Shown here one piece after another: positions 1,763 through 53,382 of a DNA stretch of 64,000 bases. Each line of letters opens with the position of its first letter. The stretch's first letter is position 1. Origin of the DNA: Mesorhizobium sp. L-2-11 (lineage in GTDB: Bacteria > Pseudomonadota > Alphaproteobacteria > Rhizobiales > Rhizobiaceae). The DNA lies in assembly GCF_016756595.1 (NCBI RefSeq), contig NZ_AP023259.1:124001-188000 (forward strand), in the 5' to 3' direction. The position numbers were made by a program, and so were the translations under genes. The notes under the pieces are model-generated. The model made no database searches. It saw nothing but the letters and a program-made list of their open reading frames with translations, and was not told the DNA's origin.

Positions 1763-2092
1763 ATGACAAGCAAGACGACCAACAAGTTCTCTCCCGAGGT
1801 CCGAGCCCGTGCGGTGCGGCTGGTTCTGGATCACGAAGGCGAGCATGCCTCGCGGTGGGCGGCGGTGTCGTCGATCGCCGCCAAGATCGGCTGCACGGCG
1901 CAGACGCTGCATGAGTGGGTGAAGAAGGCCGAGCGCGACAGTGGCGTGCGAGCCGGTGTGCCTACGGATGTGGCGACGAAACTCAAGGCTTTGGAACGCG
2001 AGAACCGCGAGCTTCGCCAGGCCAACGAGATCCTTCGCAAGGCTTCCGCGTATTTTGCCCAGGCGGAGCTCGACCGCCGGTTCAAGCCATGA
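1763..2092 (+). CDS. IS3-family transposase OrfA (helix-turn-helix)
   Basis: OrfA is a 109-residue DNA-binding subunit. Residues 9-55 form the HTH_Tnp_1 domain ([16 protein letters not shown], then [20 protein letters not shown]). Residues 70-98 form a leucine-zipper-like helix ([20 protein letters not shown]) that mediates oligomerisation in this family. The stop overlaps the orfB start as ATGA. Start at ATG 1763, preceded by GAAGGTGGAG. Its translation is identical to the copy at 55448-55777. Confidence 0.93.
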
Positions 2093-2994
2093 TCGCATTC
2101 ATTGACGATCACCGCGAGGCGCATGGGGTCGAGCCGATCTGCAAGGTGCTGCCGATCGCCCCGTCGACCTACCACGACCATGTCGCCAAGCGCATCGATC
2201 CCTCCCGGCTGTCGGCTCGGGCGAAGCGGGATGAGGCTTTGAAGGATGAGGTCCGACGCGTGTTCGAGGCGAACTTCCGCGTCTACGGCGTTCGCAAGGT
2301 CTGGCGGCAGTTGCAGCGCGAGGGCTTCGATGTCGCCCGCTGCACGGTTGCCCGCCTGATGAAGGCCATGGGCCTCGAAGGCATCATCCGCGGCAAGCCG
2401 ATCCGCACCACGGTGAGCGACAAGGCGGCACCATGCCCTCTCGATCACGTCAATCGCCAGTTCCATGCCCCGGCGCCGAACATGCTGTGGGTCTCCGACT
2501 TCACCTACGTCGCGACCTGGACGGGCTTCGTCTATGTCGCCTTTGTCATCGACACCTATGCTCGCCGGATCGTCGGCTGGCGGGTGAGCCGGACGGCGCA
2601 TGCCAGCTTCGTTCTGGACGCTCTGGAACAGGCTCTCCATGATCGGCGGCCCGTGCAGGGAGGCGGGCTCATCCATCACAGCGATAGAGGCAGCCAGTAC
2701 GTCAGCATTCGATACACTGAGCGCTTGGCGGAGGCCGGCGTCGAGCCTTCGGTGGGCAGTGTCGGCGATAGCTACGACAATGCTCTCGCCGAAACGATCA
2801 ACGGCCTCTACAAGGCCGAGGTGATCCATCGACGCGGACCATGGCGCTCGTTCGAGGCCGTCGAGTTCGCGACGTTGGAATGGGTCGACTGGTTCAACAA
2901 TCGCCGGCTGCTGGAGCCCATCGGCAACATCCCGCCGGCCGAAGCCGAGGAACGCTACTATGCCATGCTGGAAGAACCAGCCATGGCCGCGTGA
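2089..2994 (+). CDS. IS3-family transposase OrfB (DDE catalytic subunit)
   Basis: OrfB is the 301-residue catalytic part: HTH_21 region first, then an rve integrase core with DDE residues in [16 protein letters not shown] and [12 protein letters not shown]. Its ATG overlaps the orfA stop as ATGA, so translation is probably coupled. The frame is open upstream into orfA in the -1 register, so an OrfAB fusion by frameshift is possible, but I see no clear slippery A-run. This copy appears intact; the other copy (53083-55451) is interrupted by IS30. Confidence 0.93.
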
Positions 2995-3207
2995 CTCAAA
3001 CGAAACGGCCTCCGGAAAACCCGGGGCGGTTCAAAGGGCCCACTCCATTTTCCGGAGCGGGCCTTTTGCCTGCGGTACTCAGAACCTTGGCCGCGCCGTC
3101 CAAGTTAGCGGCGAATGGTAAAGACGGACTGAATGTGTCAGGGATCTCATCGATTTGAATCCAATCGGACTGCGGACCAAGTCCTTTCCTTAGCGCGTGC
3201 GGATTCC

Positions 3208-3272
3208 GACGATGGCGCGCATGTATTCCGATCTGATGCCGCGCAGCGTTCCGATCTGATCGCGCGCAGGTG
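3208..3272. repeat. IS21 terminal repeat cluster, left end
   Basis: Three spaced copies of a motif close to TTCCGATCTGATCGCGCGCA occur here (ATTCCGACGATGGCGCGC, ATTCCGATCTGATGCCGCGC, GTTCCGATCTGATCGCGCGC). They match the multiple terminal repeats at 11620-11745 in opposite orientation, as expected for the transposase-binding ends of an IS21-family element. From 3034 to 3207 I see no gene, only a GC-rich hairpin near 3037-3066. Confidence 0.65.
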
Positions 3273-3317
3273 GAGCACCTGATCGTCGGGGAAGATGTCA
3301 CTGCATTTGCGGTTCGG

Positions 3318-3437
3318 TCAAGCGGCAGCGGAGATGATGGATCTGCGCATGGATTCGCCGTTGAGTTCGAGCCGGTGAGCGTTGTGAACGAGGCGGTCGA
3401 GGATGGCATCGGCGTAGGTGGGATCCGCGAATGCTTC
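3318..3437 (-). pseudogene. istB: istB 3' fragment (IS21 helper ATPase)
   Basis: The - strand reads [20 protein letters not shown] and then [24 protein letters not shown], the conserved C-terminus of IstB. It begins at the recombinase stop codon/crossover site of the adjacent element. The 5' istB piece at 6048-6687 ends at WFDLIGDPS, which overlaps this fragment at the DP position, so the two are not simple halves of one gene. Confidence 0.75.
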
Positions 3438-5544
3438 ATGATGCACCTTTCCTTGATCGCCTGGTCCGTTGCAGTCGGCGTTGAAGTTGATCGATCTGGT
3501 CGCTGGAAAGGCTGATCTGCCAAGGCTGGCCTTTCGTGCTTTGCCGACCGTTGATAAGTCCCTGGGCGAGGTAATCGAAGATGGTTTGAGCCGTCACGCC
3601 GATTGCAGCGGCAGCGCCCTGTACAGAGTAGGTCCCATCAGGCCAGCGTGTCGGATTGGCTGCGACACCGTTAATCTTGGCTGTCGGGATTCCCCAGCGG
3701 TGGCGCAGAAGCCAGACGTTCTCGTAGGTGAATGGTCTGCCTCGGGCTGAACGAATGCCCTCGTCGTTCAATTTTTTGGCGATTTGCCTGTCCATATCGC
3801 CCGCAGCATTGAGTTGCGTGATCCGCTCACGCACAAGCTCGAGTTCGCCATAGTCTCGATCGTAAGATTGAACTCGGCGTTGGATTTGATGTTGGCTGGT
3901 TGCGCCGGTCTGCCAAAGAATCCTGATGGCGACCTGGCCGCGTATCTTCTTCTGGTCGAGAACGACCTCCTGCACGATGAAGCGCAAGATACGTTTGCGG
4001 TCTTCTGGTTGGGTCGTTTCTGAGTGCCAGATAGCCGGCAAATTCTCGGCGAGTTGCTGAAGCGCCGCGTGATCCTGTGTCTGTAACACCAAGGGCTCTC
4101 GGTCTCTCCACCGACGATATTCCTGCTCGATCTCATCGACCAAGCGCAGCTTGTCTTCCCATGCCTTTTCCAGGGTTCTGGCGACGAGACGATTTTCCGG
4201 TTCCACGGTGTCGTATTGTCGTCGAGCCCGCTCGGCGTCATACCGCGCACGTTCCCGCCGTAGCGTCCATTGTTTCTCGAGGCTCCGCGTTTCCTCCGCA
4301 ATCTCGTCGAGCGCAGCGATGGCGATGGCGATTTGGTCAGGTTCCAACGCCTTCAGGAGGGTTTGGGCGACCAACTCATCTACTGCGGGCGCCCGAACCT
4401 CCTGACAGAGAGAGCTGCCGGTCTGGTTGCGGTCCGCCAGGCAGCAGTAAACGGGGCATGCACTGTCGGGGCCGCTGTAGCGCACGGTCATCCGCCGCCC
4501 GCATTGGCCGCAAACCGCCAAGCCCTGCAGCAAAGCAATGCCCTTGCGCGGCGCGCCGCGGTGGCCGGCCTCGTATCGATTGGTGTTGTCGGCGAGGCGG
4601 CGCTGATTGACCATGAACTCCTCCCAGTCAATATAACCAGGGTGTGCGTCTTTGATGCAAACCTCCCAGTCGTCAATGGCCACCTTCGAGGTTGCGCGGT
4701 GCGAACCCGGACCTTGGCGGACCGCATTTATTCGGCGCCGGCCGTAGACATATGCGCCGGCATAGGCCGGGTTGTGCAAAATATAATGGACATGGGCGAT
4801 GGTGGCGTCTCGCCACACCAGCTCATGGGGTCCCGGCCCGCGGAGCGGCCGCACCGGTATGCGTAGGTCGTGCGTGCGCAGGTAACGCATAACGCGTCGC
4901 GCGGTCCCAAGCTCCCTAAATTTGTCGAAGACCAGACGCAGCCGAGCCTGCACCTCTTCATCAGGATTGAGCACGATCTGGCCGGAGCGGTTGTACGCCA
5001 AGCCACCTGGCAGCGGTATGCGAAGCTCGCCTCGCGCCGCCTTCTGCCGCTCCCCTTGATGCAGGCGGATGCGGATCTGATGCAACTCTGCTTCGCTCAT
5101 GATCCCCGAGAGCCCTAACAGCAGCCGGTCGTGATAAGCGCAGGGATCGTAGAGGCGCTCGCCATCAGCGATGATAACGCCGAACAATGAACACAACTCG
5201 AGGAGTTGATGCCAATCTCGGTTATTGCGTGCCAATCGAGATGCATCGAGGCTGACCACCAGACCCGCGTTGCCGAGCCCGATCTCGGCGATGAGCCGTT
5301 GGAAGCCGCCGCGCTCGACTTGGCCGTTTCCCGATTTTCCAAGATCCTCATCGATGACGACGACACGATCCGGCGGCCAGCCCAATCTGACGGCTCGGTC
5401 CACCAAGCTGTACTGAAGTTCGGTGCTTTCCTGATGGTGGCGCACCTGGTTTATCGAGGATTGGCGTACATAAACGTAAGCGAACTTTGAACGCCGGACG
5501 GCCGTGAGCCGCTCGTCAGAATTACCCGGGACGGCCAACATCAA
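3436..5544 (-). CDS. large serine recombinase (element 1)
   Basis: This 702-residue protein has the large serine recombinase layout. The catalytic resolvase domain (about 20-165) has the nucleophile in YVYVRQSS (Ser29) and the [15 protein letters not shown] helix. A Recombinase domain follows (about 190-300). A zinc ribbon (CGQCGRRM, then YCCLADRN and LCQEV) and a coiled-coil region (about 400-470) come next. A C-terminal helix-turn-helix-like end ([17 protein letters not shown]) closes it. Such enzymes cut both att sites with a phosphoserine link and exchange strands around a 2-bp core. Start ATG 5544 overlaps the small gene upstream. The C-terminus KGAS-stop forms part of the element end shared with the second recombinase. 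Confidence 0.9.
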
Positions 5545-5737
5545 ACTGTTCCCTCACCGCCGGCGCGGTCGGCGGCATCCGGCGGATCAGAGTCGCAAGC
5601 ATCTGCGCGAGTTGGTGCTGACATACCGGTGGGAGATCGTTCCAAAGATTGGGCGAGTCTCGCTTGATCCTTACCAGTGGAACGTTGGCCTCCGGAAGAG
5701 ATACCGCCATCCGAAGTGCTAATGCATGAGCAACCAT
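5522..5737 (-). CDS. small protein upstream of and overlapping recombinase 1 (71 aa)
   Basis: This frame encodes VSLPEANVPLVRIKRDS and then LWNDLPPVCQHQLAQMLATL, a short helical protein overlapping the recombinase start by 23 bases in another frame. The W-x2-LP-x9-LA-x2-L pattern looks like a real conserved segment, not a shadow. An equivalent small gene overlaps the recombinase start in element 2 (8421-8705). Its role is unknown; close coupling suggests an accessory of the recombinase, for example a directionality or DNA-binding factor, but that is inference. The start is uncertain (ATG 5737 or an internal codon). Confidence 0.5.
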   Translation of the reverse strand: MVAHALALRMAVSLPEANVPLVRIKRDSPNLWNDLPPVCQHQLAQMLATLIRRMPPTAPAVREQFDVGRPG

Positions 5738-6014
5738 TGCAATTCGCTATTGAGTTACCAAAGGTGATTCGCACATAATACACTAAAGGAAGCAAAATTC
5801 TAACGGATATTAACTTTTCAGTCCCGCCGCGATGCTCATCGTCATCATCGATAGCGCGCGACAAATCCGTCACTGACCGGCGGATATTGCGTAACCGCCC
5901 ATCCGGCAGGCGGATGACAACAAAGGCAGGTCCGCGCCCCGACCGAAGTGATGCCACCTCAAACCGCTGTCCACAGAGCGCGTGTCGACGGTCAACTACC
6001 GTGATGTGAGACAC
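5541..6014 (-). CDS. first gene of element 1, DUF5372-like N-terminus
   Basis: From a GTG at 6014 the frame reads ITVVDRRHALCGQRFEVASL and then RLPDGRLRNIRRSVTDLS. The pattern (xITHPxHPLxGQxFEV with a short beta-rich continuation) resembles the DUF5372-type protein of element 2 (7504-7791). Only the first ~55 residues look conserved; the rest, to the stop at 5541, overlaps the small gene and may be out of frame or read-through. It may therefore be a shorter or frameshifted gene. It lies 30 bp inside the element boundary, as in element 2. Confidence 0.4.
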   Translation of the reverse strand: MSHITVVDRRHALCGQRFEVASLRSGRGPAFVVIRLPDGRLRNIRRSVTDLSRAIDDDDEHRGGTEKLISVRILLPLVYYVRITFGNSIANCNGCSCISTSDGGISSGGQRSTGKDQARLAQSLERSPTGMSAPTRADACDSDPPDAADRAGGEGTV

Positions 6015-6047
6015 CAGCCGATCAATGACAGGGGCATCCTGCTCTGC

Positions 6048-6687
6048 TTGGGTCTCCGATCAGATCGAACCAGCGGGCCACCGGGAGTTGACTGGTCACC
6101 AGCGTTGAGCGCCGCCCGTACCGGTCTTCGAGGATTTCGAGCAGGTGGTGACGGGCATTGCCGTCGAGCGGTTCGAGGCCCCAATCGTCGAGGATAAGGA
6201 GATCGACCCTGGCCAGGCTTTTCATGCGCGCGGCGATGCGGCCGTCGCCCTTGGCCAGGGACAGGTCATCGATGAGCCGCGGCAGCCGGGTGTAGAGGAC
6301 CGAACGGTTGTCACGGCAGGCCTTGTGACCGATGGCGCAGGCCAACCAGCTCTTCCCGACCCCGGCCGGCCCGACGATGGCCAAGCTCTCATGGGCGGCG
6401 ATCCAGTCGCCCTTGAGCAGCTTGTCGAACAGCCGGCGATCGAGACCGCGCGCAGCACGGTAATCGACATCCTCGGGCACGGCATGGTGGCGTAGCCGCG
6501 CATGACGAAGGCGGAGCGCAAGGCGCCGGTCATTACGGTATGTCGCCTCGTGATCGAGCAGCAGGGCAAGCCATTCGGCGTGGCTGAGGTTGTCGGCATC
6601 GCTGTTGCTTTCCAATTCGATGAACGCATGGGCCATGCCGGCCAGGCCGAGTTGCCCCAGCAGTTCGAGTGTCGGATGTTTGAGCAT
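6048..6687 (-). pseudogene. istB: istB 5' part, truncated (IS21 helper ATPase)
   Basis: IstB is the AAA+ ATPase that loads and activates the IS21 transposase. This piece covers about 213 of ~250 residues: the N-terminal helical domain, Walker A (GPAGVGKSWLACAIG) and Walker B (VDLLILDDWGLEP). The start at 6687 has an AAAGGA ribosome site and follows istA by about 10 bp. The C-terminal [15 protein letters not shown] segment is replaced by element 1 sequence after WFDLIGDPS. Without the C-terminus it is probably non-functional. Confidence 0.85.
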
Positions 6688-6697
6688 TGTAGTCCTT

Positions 6698-7474
6698 TCA
6701 GTTGTAATATCCGGAGCCCCGGATGTTGGTGTGGAAGATCGGCGTGTGGTCCGGGGCTTCGCGCGCCGGAACCTTGTCGAGCCCCTTCTCGAGGATCGAT
6801 TTGACCGAGGGATAGTTGCGCGCCTGGATCTCCAGCGCGCGCCGCGCGGCCGCTTCCAGGCGTTCGGCGCCGAAGCGCTTCGCTAGCCCGATGATGCCGA
6901 GGCATGAACGGTAACCCTGCTCGGGATGCGGCCGATCCTCAATGATCTTTTCAACCAGCAACGACAGCATCGGCCCGATCCGCGCCGCTTCCTCCCGGAT
7001 CTTCACGGGCGTCCATTCACGGTAGCGCCGATGGCTCGAGGGCATATGTTCGGGGATCGTCGTATGCCGCCCGTTGCCGCTGCCACGCATGTGCGCGGCG
7101 ATGCGTTCGCCGTCGAGGAAGATTTCGACGGTGCGTGTGGTAATTCGAGCCTCGACCTCGCGGCGGGCGAAGCGCCAGGGCACCGAGTAATGGTGGTGCT
7201 CAATCGCGATGTGATAATCGAGTCCGACTCGGCAACGCTTCCACTCAGCGTGGACCCACCGTTCCGCCGGCAGCGGCTTGAGGTTCGGCGCGTCGATCTC
7301 CTCGAACAGCTGGCGCCGCGTTTTGCTGAACTGGCGAAGCACCCGTGTGTCGTTGAGATCGGTGATGCATTCGGCGACCGCCGCGTTCACCTCGGCCAGG
7401 CTGTAGAAGATCCGGTTGCGCAAGCGGCCCAGGACCCAGCGTTCGACAATGCCGACACAGGCCTCGACTTTCGC
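6698..7474 (-). pseudogene. istA: istA 3' part (IS21 transposase)
   Basis: On the - strand this reads KAKVEACVGIVERWVLGRLR and continues through the C-terminal beta-barrel region to SGYYN-stop. It is the C-terminal half of IstA. Its first codons join precisely to the istA 5' part at 10778-11535 if the intervening element is removed (RDKEKAKVEA), so it is one gene interrupted by a clean insertion. istB starts 11 bp downstream. Confidence 0.88.
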
Positions 7475-7503
7475 CTTGGATCAAGCCGTCAACTGCAGCT
7501 CGT

Positions 7504-7791
7504 GTGGGTACGACCGGTCTTGCGGTGCGCATCACACATCCCTTCCACCCACTCCTTGGTCAGATCTTCGAGGTGGTCAGCCGTAGCCCGCATTGGGGCG
7601 AGGACCGGGTAATCTATCGGGCGGCAAACGGGACTTTGCCAACCATTGCCGTCGCTTTGACGGACATGGCGCCGCCCGATCCATTCCGGCGGATCGCGGC
7701 TGGGCGTGCCGCTTTCCGGATAGTCGACCTGCAGCGGCTGCTCGGCATCTTGGAGCAGGTCTCCTCGTCAATAGAGGTGGGCGATGCGTAA
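7504..7791 (+). CDS. DUF5372-type protein of element 2 (95 aa)
   Basis: A short protein, RITHPFHPLLGQIFEVVSRS with HWGEDRVIYRAANGTL and DPFRRIAAGRAAFRIVDLQR, matching my memory of DUF5372 proteins, which resemble a small beta-barrel. It begins about 30 bp inside the element end. GTG 7504 or GTG 7525 may be the start; the conserved part begins at the latter. Families of this type recur beside large serine recombinases and transposase helper genes; the function is unknown. It is transcribed in the same direction as the HTH, small and recombinase genes. Confidence 0.65.
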   Translation: MGTTGLAVRITHPFHPLLGQIFEVVSRSPHWGEDRVIYRAANGTLPTIAVALTDMAPPDPFRRIAAGRAAFRIVDLQRLLGILEQVSSSIEVGDA

Positions 7792-7901
7792 AAACAATTA
7801 CACCGCTATTGTAATGCAAAATACGCCGCATCGAGCGATAAGAGACCTCAATGTTGCCTGTAGTATCAGGCATTTTGGGGATTCATATCAGGTTGCGGCA
7901 T

Positions 7902-7930
7902 TTGACAGCTTAGCTTGTGAGGCGTATTTT
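7902..7930 (+). promoter_or_regulatory. sigma-70-type promoter for the element 2 HTH-recombinase genes
   Basis: TTGACA (7902-7907), a 17-bp spacer and TATTTT (7925-7930) form a near-consensus promoter. It sits 29 bp before the ATG at 7959 in an AT-richer stretch of a GC-rich region. It would drive the HTH, small and recombinase genes. Activity is predicted from sequence only. Confidence 0.55.
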
Positions 7931-7958
7931 TATTTACGAATCAGTTTTGAGGTTGGAC

Positions 7959-8439
7959 ATGGCCAAACCAAAGCCGGTGCTAGACGATCCAAAGGGCGAG
8001 GCCCTGGCTCGGGACGGCACGCTCAACCCCCACCCCGAAGCCATCAGCGACACCCTGTTCATCAGCAATCCCTTCCTTCGACGCCAAGGACCTTGTCCAG
8101 GTGCGCTACGAGATGGTGCGTCGCCATCAAGCCGATGGCGTGCCCATCAGCAATGTGGCCCGCGTCTTCGGGGTCTCGCGGCCAACCTTCTACAAGGCAC
8201 AAAGCACCTTGGCCGATCACGGTCTGGCAGGCTTGATCCCCCAGCAGCGGGGACCAAAGGATGGGCACAAGCTCTCGGCAGAGATCGTTGGCTTTGTCGA
8301 CGAACTCAAGGCGGCAAGGCCAGATCTGACCTTGCCGCAATGCATCGCCGAGATCACAGCGCGCTTTGGCATCACCGTGCACCGACGAAGTCTCGAACGG
8401 GCGATGGCGCGCCAAAAAAAACGACCCGACTCTCTTTAA
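7959..8439 (+). pseudogene. helix-turn-helix protein of element 2, frameshifted
   Basis: The gene starts at ATG 7959 (MAKPKPVLDDPKGEALARDG) and continues in the next frame as FDAKDLVQVRYEMVRRHQAD, then ISNVARVFGVSRPTFYKAQS, a helix-turn-helix of the Helix_turn_helix/winged type found in transposase OrfA-like proteins. The two frames join at 8070-8079 (CCCTTCCTTC), where one extra C breaks the frame; a genuine mutation, a sequencing error or programmed shifting are all possible. The product would be about 160 residues. At its 3' end an A8 run (8414-8421) could shift ribosomes -1 into the small gene that follows. Confidence 0.6.
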
Positions 8440-8705
8440 CCGCCGGCGCAGCCAATCTTGTCGACGCCTACGAACAGTTACGGGCGGTCGTGCTTGGCGC
8501 CCCAGTAATTACCGCCGCAGGGCTGGGCACCCTTCGGCGTCAAGGTATGGCCGCTTGGATCAAGGCCATGTCCACGCCCCCCGCTTCGGCGCTGACACGC
8601 CCGGTGTATCGACCGCCTATGCCGGGCGCGACCGCCACCAATGAGCTTATCGTCATTTTAGCCAGTCTTGTTGTCACGCTAACCGCGGAGCCAGCACATG
8701 CCTGA
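8421..8705 (+). CDS. small protein between HTH gene and recombinase 2 (start uncertain)
   Basis: The frame reads ANLVDAYEQLRAVVLGAPV, then GLGTLRRQGMAAWIKAMST, and ends EPAHA-stop, overlapping the recombinase start by 8 bases. No ATG, GTG or TTG lies in frame at a sensible position before the conserved YEQLR segment. Translation may therefore come from a -1 shift at the A8 run at the end of the HTH gene, giving an HTH fusion. It is positionally equivalent to the 71-residue gene of element 1. Function unknown. Confidence 0.45.
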   Translation, partial: TTRLSLTAGAANLVDAYEQLRAVVLGAPVITAAGLGTLRRQGMAAWIKAMSTPPASALTRPVYRPPMPGATATNELIVILASLVVTLTAEPAHA

Positions 8706-10776
8706 TCTCAAAATCACCACCGATCACCTCCGGCGCGATGCCTACCTCTACATCCGCCAATCGACACTGCGACAGGTCGCCGAGAATGGCGAGAGCACCC
8801 AGCGACAGTACGCGTTGCGTGATCGCGCCATCGCCGCCGGTTGGCCCGTTGATCGTATCCACGTCATCGACTGCGATCTGGGCAAGTCCGGATCCAGCGC
8901 TGTCTCTCGCGACGGCTTCCAGGAGTTGGTCAGCGAAGTCGCGCTAACCAAGGCCGGCATCGTCATGGGGCTAGAGGTCTCGCGATTAGCGCGCAATTCG
9001 GCTGATTGGCATCGGCTTCTCGAACTCTGCGGCCAGACCCGCACCCTGATCCTCGACGAAGACGGCATCTACGACCCGGTCGGCTTTAACGATCGGCTGT
9101 TACTCGGGCTCAAAGGAACTATGAGCGAAGCCGAGCTGCACTTCCTCAAAGCCCGTATGCGCGGTGGACAGATCAACAAGGCCCGCCGCGGCGAGCTTCG
9201 GATCGGCGCGCCTGTCGGCCTGGTTTACCGGCCTGATGGCGCCCTCGATCTCGACCCCGATGCCGAGGTGCAGGCCGCGCTTCACCTGGTGTTCGCCACC
9301 TTCGAGCGCCTCGGCAGCGCGACCCGGACGGTCAAGTACTTCCTGGACGAAGGCATCCTGTTCCCACGACGGCTGCGCAAAGGCACGCAAAAAGGCGAGG
9401 TGTTGTGGGCGCCGCCGCGTCACGCTCGCATTTTGCAGGTGCTTCATAACCCGAGATATGCAGGCGCCTTTGTCTATGGAAGATCACACGGCCGCCCTCG
9501 GCCCGGAGGCGGCGTGTCCCAGATCAAGGTGGAAATGGCTGACTGGCAAGTCGTCATGCCCGACATGCATCCGGGCTACATCGACTGGGCGCGCTTCAAG
9601 GCGAACCAGGAAAAGCTCACCGACAACGCCCAAGCCTATACCATACACCGCAAAGCCGGCCCGGTCCGGGAGGGACCAGGCTTGCTTCAGGGTCGCGTCC
9701 TTTGCGGCCTATGCGGCGAACGCATGAGCGTCCAGTATAGTCAGGAACATGGGCAGTCAGTCCCGACCTACGTTTGCAAGGAAACCGCCACCCGCCGGGG
9801 CGGCAAGGTCTGCCAGTCGGTGCCGGGCAAGGTGGTCGACCCGGCCGTCAGCGCGCTGTTAGTCAAGCTGATGACCCCGATGACCTTGGAGGTCAGCCTC
9901 GCGGTACAGGGCGAGCTGGAAGCCCGCACCGCCGAGACCGACAACTTGCGTCGCCAACATATTGAACGAACGCGCTACGACGCCGAACTCGCCCAGCGAC
10001 GCTATATGAAGGTCGATCCCGACAACCGTCTCGTCGCCGACGCCCTCGAGGCTGAATGGAACGAGAAGCTGCGGCTGCACACCGATGTCGTCGAGGACTA
10101 CGAGCGGCGGGCGCCCGAGGAGGCCGCCGCCCTCGACACCGAGATGCGCCAACGCATCCTTGATCTCGCCGAGCAGTTCCCTCGGATCTGGAGCGACCCC
10201 CGCGTCGACGTGCGTGAACGCAAGCGCATCCTGCGCTTGCTCATCGCCGACGTGACCCTAATCAAGGCGGACAAGATCACGGTCCATGTTAGCTTGTCTG
10301 GCGGAGCGACGCGCTCCTTGACCCTGGATCGGCCGCTGCCGATCGCTCAGATCCGCAAATTTAAGCCTGATCTGGTCGCCGAGGTCGACCGCCTGCTCGA
10401 TCTTCACTGCGATCGCCAGATCGCCGAAATCTTCAACGAGCGCGGCCTTCGAACGTGGGAAGGCTCACCCTATAATCTCAAGAAGATCGCCCACATCCGC
10501 AATGCCTATAGATTATCAAGTCGTCGTCAGCGCCTTCTCGACAAAGGAATGCTCACCACAAAGCAAGTTGCAATCCGGTTCAATATATCTCTGACGACTG
10601 TCCATGCGTGGGGCCGCCAAGGCCTCATCACCAAATGCTTTAGTGATAACCATAATCGCGGCCTCTGGGAACTTCCCGCAGGTCGCACCATAATTAAGGG
10701 AAACGCTGGAAAACATCCTTATCCCGCTCGCCTTCAATCCACTACCGCTCAATCAACCGAACAAGGTGCAATATGA
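8698..10776 (+). CDS. large serine recombinase (element 2)
   Basis: This 692-residue relative of the first recombinase has a resolvase catalytic domain (about 14-165; Ser22 in YLYIRQST), a Recombinase domain (about 185-300), a zinc ribbon (CGLCGERM, then YVCKETATRR and VCQSV), a coiled-coil stretch (about 395-470) and a C-terminal helix-turn-helix (IRFNISLTTVHAWGRQGLI). It is the presumed integrase/excisionase of element 2. Start ATG 8698 overlaps the small gene upstream. The gene ends QGAI-stop, and the stop is two bases from the deduced crossover, so the 3' end of the gene doubles as the recombination end. Recombinase 1 shows the same arrangement. Confidence 0.92.
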   Translation: MPDLKITTDHLRRDAYLYIRQSTLRQVAENGESTQRQYALRDRAIAAGWPVDRIHVIDCDLGKSGSSAVSRDGFQELVSEVALTKAGIVMGLEVSRLARNSADWHRLLELCGQTRTLILDEDGIYDPVGFNDRLLLGLKGTMSEAELHFLKARMRGGQINKARRGELRIGAPVGLVYRPDGALDLDPDAEVQAALHLVFATFERLGSATRTVKYFLDEGILFPRRLRKGTQKGEVLWAPPRHARILQVLHNPRYAGAFVYGRSHGRPRPGGGVSQIKVEMADWQVVMPDMHPGYIDWARFKANQEKLTDNAQAYTIHRKAGPVREGPGLLQGRVLCGLCGERMSVQYSQEHGQSVPTYVCKETATRRGGKVCQSVPGKVVDPAVSALLVKLMTPMTLEVSLAVQGELEARTAETDNLRRQHIERTRYDAELAQRRYMKVDPDNRLVADALEAEWNEKLRLHTDVVEDYERRAPEEAAALDTEMRQRILDLAEQFPRIWSDPRVDVRERKRILRLLIADVTLIKADKITVHVSLSGGATRSLTLDRPLPIAQIRKFKPDLVAEVDRLLDLHCDRQIAEIFNERGLRTWEGSPYNLKKIAHIRNAYRLSSRRQRLLDKGMLTTKQVAIRFNISLTTVHAWGRQGLITKCFSDNHNRGLWELPAGRTIIKGNAGKHPYPARLQSTTAQSTEQGAI

Positions 10777-10777
10777 A

Positions 10778-11535
10778 GCCTTCTCCTTATCGCGTGGCTT
10801 CCTCGGTCTTGCCGGGAGCACCGCCGTGCCGTAATGACGCGCCATGTCGGTGTAGCTGCGGTTGACCATCGGATCGAAGTGACACGCCTTAATCACCGCG
10901 ACCTTCGCGTTGTCCGGGACCAGAAGATGGGCCACGCCGCCGAAGAAGGCGAAGGCGCCATTGTGCGCCTCGATCCAGTCCGCGAACTGCTCGGTCCACG
11001 TCGCGCAGGCAAATGACAAGCTCGATCCGCCGAGCACCGCCACAAACAGATGGGCATCGCGCACCTCACCGGTCCGGCGGTCGACTACAACCGGCACCGT
11101 GTCGCCGGCGTAATCGACAAACATCTTCTCACCGCCCGCGTGGCTCTGCCGCATCGTCAGAGGCAGGCGGCCTTCCCAGCGCCGGAACAGGTCACACCAA
11201 CGGCTGTAGCGATAGCCATCCGGGTGGGCGGCGACATACTCTTCCCACAGAACCTGCAGCGTCACATGCTTGCGCTTCAGCTCACGTGCTACCGCCGACC
11301 AGTCCGGTTCCGGCTGTTTGCGCCGGCCGGGCTTCATCCCAGGTAAGCCGTATAGGCAAGCTTCCAGGTCGGCATCGCTCATCTCGGCCGGGACCGGCCA
11401 GTTCAGCCCGGAGCGTGCAAACCGCTTCAGCATATCCCGGACCGTCGTCGGCCCGACCCCGGCACGCTCGCCAGCCATCCGCGTCGATAGCCCCGCTTCC
11501 AAGCTCAGACGTAAAATCTCGCGCACGTGGCGCAT
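10778..11535 (-). pseudogene. istA: istA 5' part (IS21 transposase)
   Basis: IstA is the DDE transposase of IS21. This piece holds the N-terminal HTH (MRHVREILRLSLEAGLSTRM) and the first half of the rve core, with EKMFVDYAGDTVPVV giving the first catalytic Asp and LVPDNAKVAV giving the second. The start at 11535 is chosen because AGGAGG precedes it by six bases; 11556 is an alternative. The gene is cut by element 2 after RDKEK and resumes at 7474. The catalytic Glu region falls beside the cut. Confidence 0.88.
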
Positions 11536-11619
11536 CCTAACCCTCCTCGTCGGCATCCATTCCTCCGGTCGTTGCCCGACCGGAACATGCCCCAAGGATC
11601 AGGTTCTCCTAACTCCGAA

Positions 11620-11745
11620 CTGCGCGCGATCGTGTCGGAATCCCGCGCGGGTAATTCTCGGAATGCTGCGCGCCATCACTTCGGAATGCCGCGCGCGATC
11701 AAATCGGAACGGTGCGCGCGATGATCTCGGAATCCGCAGCGCGTG
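11620..11745. repeat. IS21 terminal repeat cluster, right end
   Basis: Five spaced copies of the TCGGAAT/TCGGAAC plus GCGCGC motif occur here. Read on the - strand they resemble ATTCCGANNTGATCGCGCGC and match the three copies at 3208-3272. Such multiple repeats are the IS21 transposase binding sites, next to the istA start. Confidence 0.65.
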
Positions 11746-29727: not shown

Positions 29728-30234
29728 ATGGCCCGCACCTCACTTGCCGAACGCATGAGCCGCCTGGAGCAGCAGCGGGCGAAACTCGCCCAGCAGGAGG
29801 CAAAACTCAAGGCGGACGAACGCAAGCAGCGCACCCGCCGCCTCGTCGAAGCCGGGACCCTCATCGAGCGCGCCGGATTATTGGACCTGGAGGAAACCGC
29901 CCTTTATGGTGCGTTGTTGTCGCTTGCTGCTGACGCAGGCGACAGGGCAAAAATCGCCGGGTGGACGAAGGCTGGCAAAACCGCGCTCGATCAGGCTACG
30001 GTCGGCAAGAACGCAACAACCGAACCGTTGATCGTCATCTTCCCTGCACCGCTGCCGACCCCATTCGCGACCCGCCTGCGCGGCGCCGGCCTGCGCTGGA
30101 ACAAAGTCATGCAGCACTGGGAAGGGCTGGCGGATCACGACGTCGTCGCAGCACTTGCCGCGGAACAGAGCGGCAGCGTGCGGCGCGTTCATTCCGCGGC
30201 AGAGTCCGATCGCGAGCGCAACACAAAATCTTGA
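29728..30234 (+). CDS. traD: conjugal transfer protein TraD
   Basis: This 168-residue protein starts at ATG 29728 behind CGGAGAG. MARTSLAERMSRLEQQRAKL and the following basic coiled-coil to about residue 50, then GALLSLAADAGDRAKIAGWT, match Ti-plasmid TraC/TraD-type DNA-processing accessory proteins. It is longer than the ~71-residue Ti TraD: residues ~100-150 add a segment (PLPTPFATRLRGAGLRWNKV) with an unknown role. It probably helps TraA assemble at oriT. traG begins 37 bp downstream. Confidence 0.82.
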   Translation: MARTSLAERMSRLEQQRAKLAQQEAKLKADERKQRTRRLVEAGTLIERAGLLDLEETALYGALLSLAADAGDRAKIAGWTKAGKTALDQATVGKNATTEPLIVIFPAPLPTPFATRLRGAGLRWNKVMQHWEGLADHDVVAALAAEQSGSVRRVHSAAESDRERNTKS

Positions 30235-32252: not shown

Positions 32253-33228
32253 CAAGTCGGGGAAGATGCAGCAACATCGTGAAGCGCGTCGTACGCTCAA
32301 CCAGCGTGCCGATCGCCGAGCTGCCAAGACCAAGGATGAGGTCTCCCTCCCAGTGACCCGGCACCGCGCGATCGACCGCTTCGGCGGGGCGTTGACTGAT
32401 CATGATCTCCGGCGAGACAAAGCTCTTGCCTCGCCCGCGTACGCGCGCCCTGGGGACCCGCAACACGCGCCCCGTTCTCAAGCAGGCCGACAGTTCGCGG
32501 CGTAGCGCTCCCCGGCCCTGAACAAAAAGGGCCTGATAGATGGCTTCGTGGCTGATGCGCATCGTCTCGTCGTCCGGGAAGTCGATCGGCAAGCGTCGGG
32601 CAATCTGTTCCGGGCTCCAGGCCGTGGCCCACCGCCGATTCTTTCGCGGGCCATGCCGGCGGCCCTTCCACGAAACGGCGGGACCCGGAACGGGAGCGCC
32701 GCTCGGAGTCATGACGACGCCGGCCAGTCTCTGCTCAACATAAGTGCGCAAGGTCGTGTTGAGCGCAAGCTTGGTCGGTTTGGGTCGACGGGCCGATCGC
32801 TCGGCATGCCATTGGGCTGTCGATGCACGATACTCCAGGCCACCGCTGCGCGTCGCGGCATTGCGTCGTAGCTCGCGGGAGATGGTTGAGGCGGATCGGC
32901 CAAGTTGGCGACCGATCTCGCGTCTCGAAAGGCCTTGAACGCGAAGTAGTGCGATCTCCTCACGTTCCACAAACGAGAGGTACCGCCCGGACGGCGGCTT
33001 GCTCGAAGATCTGAACATCGCTGGTGCCATGCCACCCGCCTGTCGGAACAATCTGGTTCCAACAGGCTGCGACATACCAGCAGCCAGCGCAGCATCTTCG
33101 CTTGTCATTCCTTGCGCGATCCCCAACCAGAATCGCTGGAGTTCAGATCTCTCCGCCACTGGCGGACGTCCCGGTGACGGCAACGGCGCTCGTCCAGAAC
33201 GGTGTGATCGTCGCTTTTGGATGCCCAT
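32253..33228 (-). pseudogene. IS30 transposase copy A, N-terminal part
   Basis: From ATG 33228 (GAAGGAGG upstream) the frame gives [20 protein letters not shown] through the HTH_38 domain ([20 protein letters not shown]) and [10 protein letters not shown] (first catalytic Asp). It then breaks at LPRLAG, where the IS4-type element lies. Confidence 0.92.
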
Positions 33229-33277
33229 CGCAACCTCCTTCGTTTAGGTGTTGCGACGACCGCTTGAATCCGCCCCT

Positions 33278-35087
33278 GCTGCGCCGATCCGGCATGGTGC
33301 TGCCCCTCACTGCCATCGCCGGCGTGTTGGGCATGGCCGCCGCAACGGTTTTCACTGTCTGGCCGGAAGCGACACGACTGCTCGAGCTGAGGCCGACCTA
33401 TCCCTGGCTCGCCATTTTGAATACGGCGGATATGTCCGTCTTCTACGCCGCCGTCATCGGCTTTCTCGCCACCGTCGCAGGCATCAGGATGCTGATGGGC
33501 AAATCACTGCGCGCCCACGACGTCAAACCGGTCGAGCGCGCATCGTCCGACATTTTTGGCCACGCCGACTGGATGGACATTCGCGAAGCGCAAAATCTCT
33601 TTGGCGGCGCCAACAGGTCACCGGGCACAAAAGATCTTGGCGGCGTCGTCGTCGGCGAAGCCTACCGCGTCGATCAGGATGCGCCCGCGCGGCGGGGGCA
33701 AAAGTTTGATCCGCGCGAACCAAAAAGCTGGGGCAAGGGCGGCAAGTCGCCTCTGCTCACTTTCGACCTCTCCTGGGGCGGCACCCATGGCCTCGTCTTC
33801 GCCGGCTCGGGCGCCTATAAAACCGTGTCCGTCTGCGTGCCGACGCTGCTCACCTGGCGTGGCCCGATCGTCACCCTCGATCCCTCCGCCGAGCTGGCGC
33901 CGATGCTCACTGGCGCGCGTACGGCGATGGGCCGGCGCGGCGTATCAATCGATCCGATGAAGGGCACCGGAGCCTTCAATGCGCTCGACTGGCTGGAAAA
34001 AGGGTCGCCGCTCATCGACGGCGACATCCGCTCGGTCGTCGACTGGATTTGTGGGGAGAAAGTGTCAGCCACCCGTGACGCGCCGCACGGCGCCTCCGGC
34101 AAGGCCTTTTTCGAGGGCCGTGGCAAGGCCATTGTCGAGGCCCTGCTTTCCGACATCGTGTTCGACAAAAACCTGTCGGACGACCGACGCAACCTCGTCA
34201 CGCTGGCGGAACGCCTCGCTCTGCCGGAGCAGAAAATGCGCGAAGAACTGGCGCGCATTTTTGAACACTCCTCCTCGCATCGCGCCCGCCATCTCGCCGG
34301 CCAGCTGATGGGACTGGTCGCAGAAACCTTTTCCGGTGTTTACGGCAACATGAGCGAGCAGACCGAATGGCTCGCCAATCCCGCCTATGCGAAACTGGTG
34401 TCGGGCAACAGTTTTCGCACTGGCGATCTCGTTTCCGGCAATCTCGATCTCTTTATCAACATCCCGATGAAGGTGCTGGAATCGACGCCGGCGCTCGCCC
34501 GCGTCGTTGTCGGCGCGCTGCTGAATGCCGTCTATGAGGCCGACGGCGTCTTGCCCGGCGGACGTGTCGTCTTCCTGCTCGATGAGGTCGCACGCCTCGG
34601 TTACATGACCTCACTGGCCCGCGCCCGCGATGCCGGCCGCAAATACGGCATTACACTGGTCATGCTCTATCAGTCCGAGGGACAACTGCGCGAGCAGTGG
34701 GGCGACGGCGGCAAGAGCGCCTGGTTCGAAAGTGCCTCCTGGCGATCCTATGCGGCGATCGGCTCGCTCGAACAGGCTCGCGTTGTCTCCGAGGCGCTGG
34801 GCGAACACGGCGTGGTGTTGAGCTCGGCGACAACAAATCGCGGAAAAAGCGCAAGACCGCTCGAGATCGGGACCGCCTCGACTGGCGCGTCGGAACAGAG
34901 ATCCGAACGCGGCCGAAGGCTGGCGACCGTCTCAGAAATCCTCGCCGACGCCCGGGCCGACGAGCAGTTCGTTTTCGTCCAGGGCAGACAACCGCTGCGC
35001 TGCGGCCGCGCCATCTATTTCCGCAGACCCGAAATGGTCGCTAAGGTCGCGCAGAACCGTTTCGCGCCCCAGGCTCAGTCGGGTTGA
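33278..35087 (+). pseudogene. traG: traG 3' part (VirD4-type coupling protein)
   Basis: This part continues the 5' piece as LLRRSGMVLPLTAIAGVLGM, with a further membrane segment and then the cytosolic ATPase. Walker A is of the TraG type, GLVFAGSGAYKTVSVCVPT, and Walker B is VVFLLDEVARLGYM. The coupling protein links the TraA-bound DNA to the mating-pair channel and pumps DNA with ATP. A start inside the IS30 (33024) would give an aberrant N-terminus without the first membrane segment. The stop overlaps or abuts the next gene. Transfer is probably abolished unless another coupling protein complements it. Confidence 0.93.
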
Positions 35088-53017: not shown

Positions 53018-53382
53018 GCTGTGGACTGCTGATTTCGACGGCTTGAACCGCCCCGGGTTTTCCGGAGGCCGTTTCGTTTGAGTCACGCGGCCATGGCTGG
53101 TTCTTCCAGCATGGCATAGTAGCGTTCCTCGGCTTCGGCCGGCGGGATGTTGCCGATGGGCTCCAGCAGCCGGCGATTGTTGAACCAGTCGACCCATTCC
53201 AACGTCGCGAACTCGACGGCCTCGAACGAGCGCCATGGTCCGCGTCGATGGATCACCTCGGCCTTGTAGAGGCCGTTGATCGTTTCGGCGAGAGCATTGT
53301 CGTAGCTATCGCCGACACTGCCCACCGAAGGCTCGACGCCGGCCTCCGCCAAGCGCTCAGTGTATCGAATGCTGACGTACTG

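Follow-up and report, generated by a model that had tools for sequence, protein, structure and literature searches.

The window examined here is a stretch of 64,000 nucleotides from Mesorhizobium sp. L-2-11 (contig NZ_AP023259.1, positions 124,001 to 188,000); it forms part of the 247.5-kb contig C3 of the source genome, G000, whose 6.65-Mb contig C1 is the chromosome. Near its left end lies an insertion sequence (IS) of the IS21 family in which both genes are interrupted by a small unit encoding a large serine recombinase: element A splits the transposase gene istA, and element B splits istB (Table 1). Element A and the family of elements to which it belongs are the subject of this report.

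Two recombinase elements in one IS21

Element A encodes a DUF5372 protein, a helix-turn-helix (HTH) protein, a small open reading frame (ORF) and recombinase A, all antisense to the split transposase. A unit of this composition within istA had been recognised in the original prediction, and Pfam matches confirm it. Recombinase A begins with its Resolvase catalytic domain (residues 15-166 of 692), followed by the Recombinase and Zn_ribbon_recom domains, with scores that all lie above the cut-off (PF00239, 66.9 bits; PF07508, 56.7 bits; PF13408, 34.9 bits); YokA of SPbeta (PDB 9dxh) is the best of its four PDB matches. The HTH gene is broken in the window, since its homologue matches in two reading frames, and both genomic copies of element A are identical, this gene included. 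The HTH protein is similar to the HTH at the N-terminus of IS481/IS630 transposases and may itself come from a transposase. Either this protein or the DUF5372 protein may control the direction of recombination, or gene expression. The structure predicted for DUF5372 was rejected as a clue to function: a mean pLDDT of 88.0 is accompanied by a pTM of 0.59, and the model has no PDB match at E ≤ 0.001, its best rows being ribosomal proteins and an SH3 domain. The start of contig C2 (G000:C2:207-566) also holds what is left of an A-like element, at 77% identity.

The boundaries of both elements are given by empty sites. A congener genome, G148, holds three clean copies of the same IS21 (L068, L069 and L070) without either insert, 99.6-100% identical to the window IS21 when compared piece by piece; once elements A and B are taken out, the window copy is 2,601 bp long and, set against L069, shows five substitutions and no indel. 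The empty istA site reads GACTTTCGCCTTATCGCGTGG in all three, that is RDKAKVE, and the letters CTTTCGCCTTATCGCG stand where the window carries element A. It follows that the junctions of element A share CCTT with the empty site (7474-7477 and 10785-10788) and that 3,311 bp have to be removed. The original prediction had GCCTT at both junctions, which is partly coincidental, and removed 3,305 bp, 6 bp too few; the rejoined RDKEKAKVEA, described as a base-perfect restoration, keeps 6 extra bases (an extra E-K) that are missing from the empty copies. Element B has only TC in common with its empty site, and comparison across the family points to TT as the probable core dinucleotide within the CCTT of element A.

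Element B and a second loaded copy of the IS21 were both absent from the original prediction. Element B (2,629 bp, 99-100% identical) occurs in three different istB genes of the genome, namely that of the window IS21 with its chromosomal copy, L012 and L013, always at the same Gly-Asp codons, and the joined flanks give an open IstB frame in each case. It is a relative of element A that acts alike at this conserved codon pair of istB; B-type loci have no HTH gene. An older copy of element B on the chromosome (L014 and L015; G000:C1:6321751-6324317), 91-94% identical, has lost about 160 bp from its middle. The whole 8,541-bp loaded IS21 is likewise duplicated, with a 100% identical copy at G000:C1:6255798-6264338, and the target duplications of the two copies differ (GCGCG in the window, CTACGTTA on the chromosome). 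The doubly interrupted IS21 thus seems to have moved despite its broken istA and istB, or each copy was hit independently. A loaded IS would presumably remain movable when transposase is supplied from elsewhere.

Table 1. Features of the doubly interrupted IS21 (positions are those of the window).
Feature	Position	Strand	Basis
Host IS21-family element; clean length 2,601 bp, 8,541 bp with both inserts	3198..11738	-	Second 100% copy; clean copies in G148
Target-site duplication of IS21, left copy, GCGCG	3193..3197
Target-site duplication of IS21, right copy, GCGCG (chromosomal copy has CTACGTTA instead)	11739..11743
istA, N-terminal part, to the junction Lys codon	10787..11556	-	NF033546 transpos_IS21, 193.8 bits, profile ends at 227/294; start from intact IstA of L069
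istA, C-terminal part, begins K-A-K-V-E	6698..7477	-	Mu-transpos_C_2; intact copy in L069
istB, N-terminal part, to I-G-D	6053..6687	-	PF01695, 195.7 bits
istB, C-terminal part, D-P-T-Y-A-D onward	3318..3425	-	End from 246-aa intact IstB; joined reading frame
Element A, both cores included; 3,311 bp core to core	7476..10788	+	Comparison with empty IS21 copies L068/L069/L070
Probable crossover dinucleotide TT, left (attL)	7476..7477		From the family; CCTT actually shared
Probable crossover dinucleotide TT, right (attR)	10787..10788		From the family, likewise
Conserved left-end motif AAGCCGTCAACTGC	7483..7496	+	1 mismatch to family motif
Conserved right-end motif GGTGCAATATGAAG-N6-CCTT	10765..10788	+	1 mismatch to family motif
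DUF5372 protein, 95 aa; predicted small beta-barrel and C-terminal helix	7504..7791	+	PF17342, 112.3 bits; mean pLDDT 88.0, pTM 0.59
HTH gene, frame broken relative to homologue	7959..8439	+	tblastn of L042 homologue matches two frames; HTH_28
Small ORF overlapping recombinase start	8466..8705	+	40% identity to L043 small protein, E 4.6e-15
Large serine recombinase A, 692 aa	8698..10776	+	PF00239, PF07508, PF13408; PHROG 95 integrase
Element B in istB of the same IS21; 2,629 bp core to core, cores TC at 3424-3425 and 6053-6054	3424..6054	-	Empty site in L068-L070; junctions and lengths in three istB genes
Large serine recombinase B, 702 aa	3436..5544	-	PF07508, PF00239, PF13408; 39% identical to recombinase A
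ORF at the other end of element B	5541..6014	-	Start resembles DUF5372 by eye; no Pfam hit

A family with recurrent ends and a shared target position in most members

Homologues were collected by their recombinase only. The scan used aligned A- and B-type recombinases as query and took in 84,980 species, each through one genome; the best 80 of 541 relatives (at least 591 candidates), four plasmid loci (L042-L045) and the window element together form a set of 85 loci. As labelled in their records, the scanned loci belong to Pseudomonadota, Acidobacteriota, Actinomycetota, Chloroflexota, Verrucomicrobiota and other phyla, and include isolates such as Acidobacteriaceae KBS 96, Conexibacter and Streptomyces turgidiscabies. 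Recombinase A also finds matches in 608 plasmid records, 380 of them at a coverage of at least 80%. In a sample of 398 Pseudomonadota genomes, with two candidates scored per genome, 12 (the source genome included) match at E ≤ 1e-60, and four of these (the source genome, G313, G397 and G481) hold a match of at least 50% identity.

The ends of the family are conserved: the left end reads TT-N5-AAGYCGTCAACTGC and the right end GGTGCAGTATGAAG-N6-CCTT, and element A has one mismatch to each. As both motifs lie inside the element, they do not presuppose any target. Of the 85 loci, 59 have CCTT as their called right end and 73 have one ending in TT; in five cases the contig stops right at the core, and in others at most a few bases away, as would be expected where an element is repeated in its genome. 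A check named in advance in the original prediction, the search for a common core and common end points among homologues, thus comes out in favour of the corrected boundaries, with terminal motifs and TT core recurring across most of the family. The 32 elements with both ends called (at most three mismatches on the left; some end calls are weak) measure 3,273-3,506 bp. Among the 84 loci with more than 1,000 bp upstream, of which two are of B type, 81 have DUF5372, 81 have the HTH gene and 34 have a recognisable small ORF; element A has the gene order DUF5372, HTH, recombinase, its HTH frame being broken in the window. This conserved architecture and length support the earlier view of a minimal mobile unit built on a serine recombinase, with no other cargo.

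Flanks were assessed for 63 loci, and in 61 of these the element interrupts a DDE transposase, assigned by best hit to IS21 (34), IS3 (17), IS481 (6), ISNCY (3) and IS66 (1); the "IS21 genes" originally named as the target are therefore one case of several, struck at a homologous codon. These 61 comprise the window, 22 loci recognised by tblastn with IstA (some with only one IstA side, the contig ending there) and 38 of 40 whose flank proteins were compared with NCBIfam; the other two of the 40 are L079, without any match, and L113, with a helicase model at 17.8 bits. In these families the break falls at the homologous place, at a codon for Lys or Asn that precedes the third catalytic acid (IS21 IstA, E233) by four residues. 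In most loci it lies at profile position 227 of 294 in IS21, between 313 and 314 of 369 in IS3, at 229 of 284 in IS481 and at 236 of 368 in ISNCY; L128, L146, L124, L139 and L092 end 1, 2, 3, 5 and 12 positions short, respectively, and L111 ends one past.

At the level of codons, the core, AA on the coding strand of the transposase, is the start of a Lys or Asn codon, and 33 of the 34 loci with core TT and at most three mismatches in the left motif have Glu as the fifth residue counted from the junction, the exception being L043 (KVEVG). The same holds for 27 of 28 distinct strings and, at up to four mismatches, for 47 of 50 loci, against a background Glu content of 7.7% elsewhere in these sequences; the 33 loci include L079, L104 and L114, whose C-terminal parts are without identification as transposase. 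Counted along the printed chain of the solved IS21 transposase (8b4h), the residue that aligns with the junction Glu is number 233. The DDE motif of the IS21 transposase consists of D124, D187 and E233, and its mutation is reported to nearly abolish integration (PMC10122671).

Whether the IS family or the DNA itself is recognised can be judged from a matrix built from the half-sites of non-IS21 loci only (25 on the N-terminal side, 18 on the C-terminal side), whose top match in two empty loci is the exact istA codon (in L069 a score of 17.1, the next in 9 kb being 11.8; in L071 18.2, the next in 5 kb being 8.2). Moreover, two recombinases that are 92.1% identical lie in an IS21 (L089) and in an IS3 (L096), and therefore a DNA motif rather than an IS family seems to be recognised. 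On a FastTree tree of 61 loci with best-hit labels, the target family is weakly clustered (20 changes against a shuffled mean of 24.1, the lowest of 200 shuffles being 19); an earlier, partly by-eye labelling in nine groups gave 26 changes against 33.6. A clear specialisation of recombinase clades on a single IS family was rejected on account of this weak signal, and the tree is only a guide because L157 and L087 have very long branches, probably through frame faults.

Applied to the window, the same non-IS21 matrix ranks first a site at 2779 (18.9), which lies in an intact IS3-like transposase ORF of 359 aa (1915-2994, plus strand; assigned to IS3 by eye) with a copy at 53298 on the minus strand. 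This would be a look-alike attachment site that has stayed unused.

Proposed mechanism and competing accounts

Element A very probably represents a widespread family of minimal integrative elements of about 3.3 kb which are moved as DNA, through site-specific recombination, by their own large serine recombinase and take the active-site codons of transposases as their attachment site; this reading is built on comparative sequence analysis. At a 2-bp core, read as AA along the coding strand of the transposase and as TT in the window, the recombinase would join the element ends to the target. With these two bases would open the Lys or Asn codon that precedes the third catalytic acid of a DDE transposase by four residues. 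The recognised motif would be roughly GAC-AA-NGC-N3-GTC-GAG; since such a motif is common to IS21, IS3, IS481, ISNCY and IS66 transposases, one type of recombinase could use several IS families. Catalysis of the insertion by the recombinase, conservative integration and excision, and a circle as intermediate would all be expected of such a system; insertion would break the transposase and excision would restore it exactly. That the elements move is argued from identical copies in different places: in Acidobacteriaceae KBS 96 the element is present four times at 100% identity, with a length of 3,371 bp in three copies and of 3,370 bp in L079. Two of the four share a kind of istA, a third occupies a different kind, and L079 lies outside any recognised transposase. 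Element B, in its three different istB genes, is further evidence of mobility.

Several observations weigh against this account. The scanned loci are only the best 80 of 541 relatives, many of them on short contigs from metagenome-assembled genomes of uncertain host, and 21 of the 85 loci, mostly lacking a flank, stand outside the flank count. Many NCBIfam matches are short pieces below full-length cut-offs, the shortest scoring 20-35 bits and the weakest 20-25 bits (L101, L115 and L135). The left-end motif was derived from IstA-bearing loci, and the Lys or Asn residue follows by construction from requiring a TT core. The structural check covers IS21 only, and the junction Glu of IS3 and IS481 is presumed to be catalytic as well. 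A matrix from all rows but the window ranks first a site at 34101 (14.6) in a VirD4/TraG-like ORF, with the IS3-like site second (13.1), and therefore the motif alone does not single out transposases; for a matrix of IS21 rows alone, the best window match is at 29797 (9.8). Finally, some insertions lie outside DDE transposases: L079, a copy of the istA-borne L078, still has NRAVE at its junction; L171, which does not belong to the set of 85 and whose recombinase is 88% identical to recombinase A, lies in a nucleoside hydrolase gene with the junction KPQAE; L113 has citrate synthase sequence on its left (by eye) and an unrelated protein on its right; and L103, one of the 85 but not of the 63, lies in a Y2 transposase of IS91 type, recognised from one flank (76.2 bits) while the other gave no Pfam hit. 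Of the three non-transposase cases (L079, L171 and L113), two have [KN]xxxE at the junction; all three look like occasional use of look-alike sites.

Two side observations belong here. The ORF that holds the site at 34101 spans 33024-35087 on the plus strand, its VirD4/TraG-like name being given by eye, and the site is a look-alike attachment site. L103 forms a supported recombinase clade with L112, L116 and L140, and the junction sequences of L112 and L140 are similar by eye, in parallel orientation.

Among other explanations, the one that survives best, though unlikely, is that of a programmed switch, in which the element resides in a transposase gene and is excised on a signal, the benefit being control of the IS and not spread. 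The fdxN and skin elements behave in this manner, being excised on signal and restoring their host genes. Removal here also restores the frame, and the best NCBIfam match of the recombinase is XisF, far below its cut-off (72.4 against 375 bits); copies in several different genes of one genome and a patchy presence are better explained by a spreading element. The two explanations are not exclusive, and a switch would be compatible with an integrative element.

Much less probable is the proposal that the 3.3-kb unit is the remnant of a decayed prophage or integrative conjugative element that once carried a large serine integrase. The domain layout of the recombinase is indeed that of phage integrases, with a match to PHROG 95, but the same genes recur within the narrow length range of the 32 elements with both ends called. 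Nor does recombinase A appear to be carried by phages: 57 of 50,697 phage records match, none over more than 80% of the recombinase, and the 15 matches listed are all at about 25% identity or less.

Just as improbable is that the recombinase is passenger cargo of IS21, moved by the IS alone. The loaded IS21 may have moved as a unit, because it is present in two identical copies with different target duplications; as the sole mode of movement this is already refuted by the clean IS21 copies without the element, by relatives in IS3, IS481, ISNCY and IS66, and by element B in three different istB genes. Least credible of all is random insertion that survives only in dispensable genes, with the transposase pattern as an artefact of ascertainment: IS genes are multicopy and dispensable and three insertions were seen outside transposases, but the near-invariant Glu, the one break position per family in most loci and the recovery of the istA codon by a matrix from other IS families are at odds with it, and the single position suffices to refute it.

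Relation to known systems and meaning

No earlier description of such an element family, and no mention of DUF5372, was found in the limited literature searched, which left most subscription papers and bioRxiv preprints outside. A survey of large serine recombinases speaks of phages, integrative conjugative and integrative mobilizable elements (ICE/IME) and plasmids, with targets such as Mg chelatase/protease, prolyl isomerase and competence genes (PMC10083194). Its recombinases resemble recombinase A in having three domain types (catalytic, Recombinase and zinc-ribbon), a short core and a conserved coding target, and in that distantly related recombinases share one target gene; element A differs by its size of 3.3 kb and by a target that is the active site of the transposases of several IS families.

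In comparison, the serine transposases of the IS607 family also form small units with a serine recombinase and no target duplication; they differ from recombinase A, which is 692 aa long, has a specific target and carries its catalytic domain first rather than after a DNA-binding domain. Tn4451 (TnpX) and Tn5397 (TndX) are transposons moved by large serine recombinases and occupy several sites per genome. Element A is a transposon-like unit of the same sort, without resistance cargo, smaller and with a longer, specific target motif. DUF4368 marks the multi-target, TndX-like clade in the survey (PMC10083194), and neither recombinase A nor B matches it (Pfam, E ≤ 0.001). Rather than many unrelated targets, the family has targets that mostly share one codon position. 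Homing introns and inteins insert in the most conserved active-site codons across distant hosts. Element A shares this preference for active-site codons and differs from them in that its genes are antisense to the transposase and its ends behave as recombination sites.

More distant recombinases, mostly 35-42% identical to A or B, in part extend the range of targets. L169 (61% identical to B) lies in IstB at Gly-Asp, L180 in IstB near the nucleotide-binding loop, and L157 and L160 adjoin IS66 genes; the element of L155 (109-4310) splits a group II intron reverse transcriptase, with positions 1-78 of the RVT_1 profile on one side and 79-205 on the other. Against such a wider theme, L156 adjoins a peptidase M15 gene and not an IS gene; the flank of L161 has no family match. 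Two further candidates did not hold: IS630 as target of L177 was dropped, the neighbouring ORF appearing uninterrupted, and IS110 as target of L175 lies below the Pfam cut-off (20.8 against 29 bits).

The balance tilts slightly towards a broader interpretation, that of hyperparasitism, with an entire lineage of serine-recombinase elements specialised on transposons. Its members would recognise the DNA coding for the catalytic-Glu motif of DDE enzymes, which would give them a nearly escape-proof site across IS families and phyla, with sister lineages using core motifs of other mobile-element proteins (IstB ATPase, IS66, IS91 and group II intron reverse transcriptase), and they would act as a natural brake on the IS while riding them. 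Such an attachment site would be hard to lose because it encodes a catalytic residue, which is not freely changed without losing transposase activity. This would add a layer of parasitism below the insertion sequences themselves, and whether such hyperparasites limit the spread of IS is a testable question. Tools for genome writing are sought among large serine recombinases, and the family would offer a natural series of recombinase/target pairs, with empty sites for two. In genome annotation it would account for many genes labelled "recombinase family protein" that occur together with "DUF5372" genes, as well as for some transposases that look broken.

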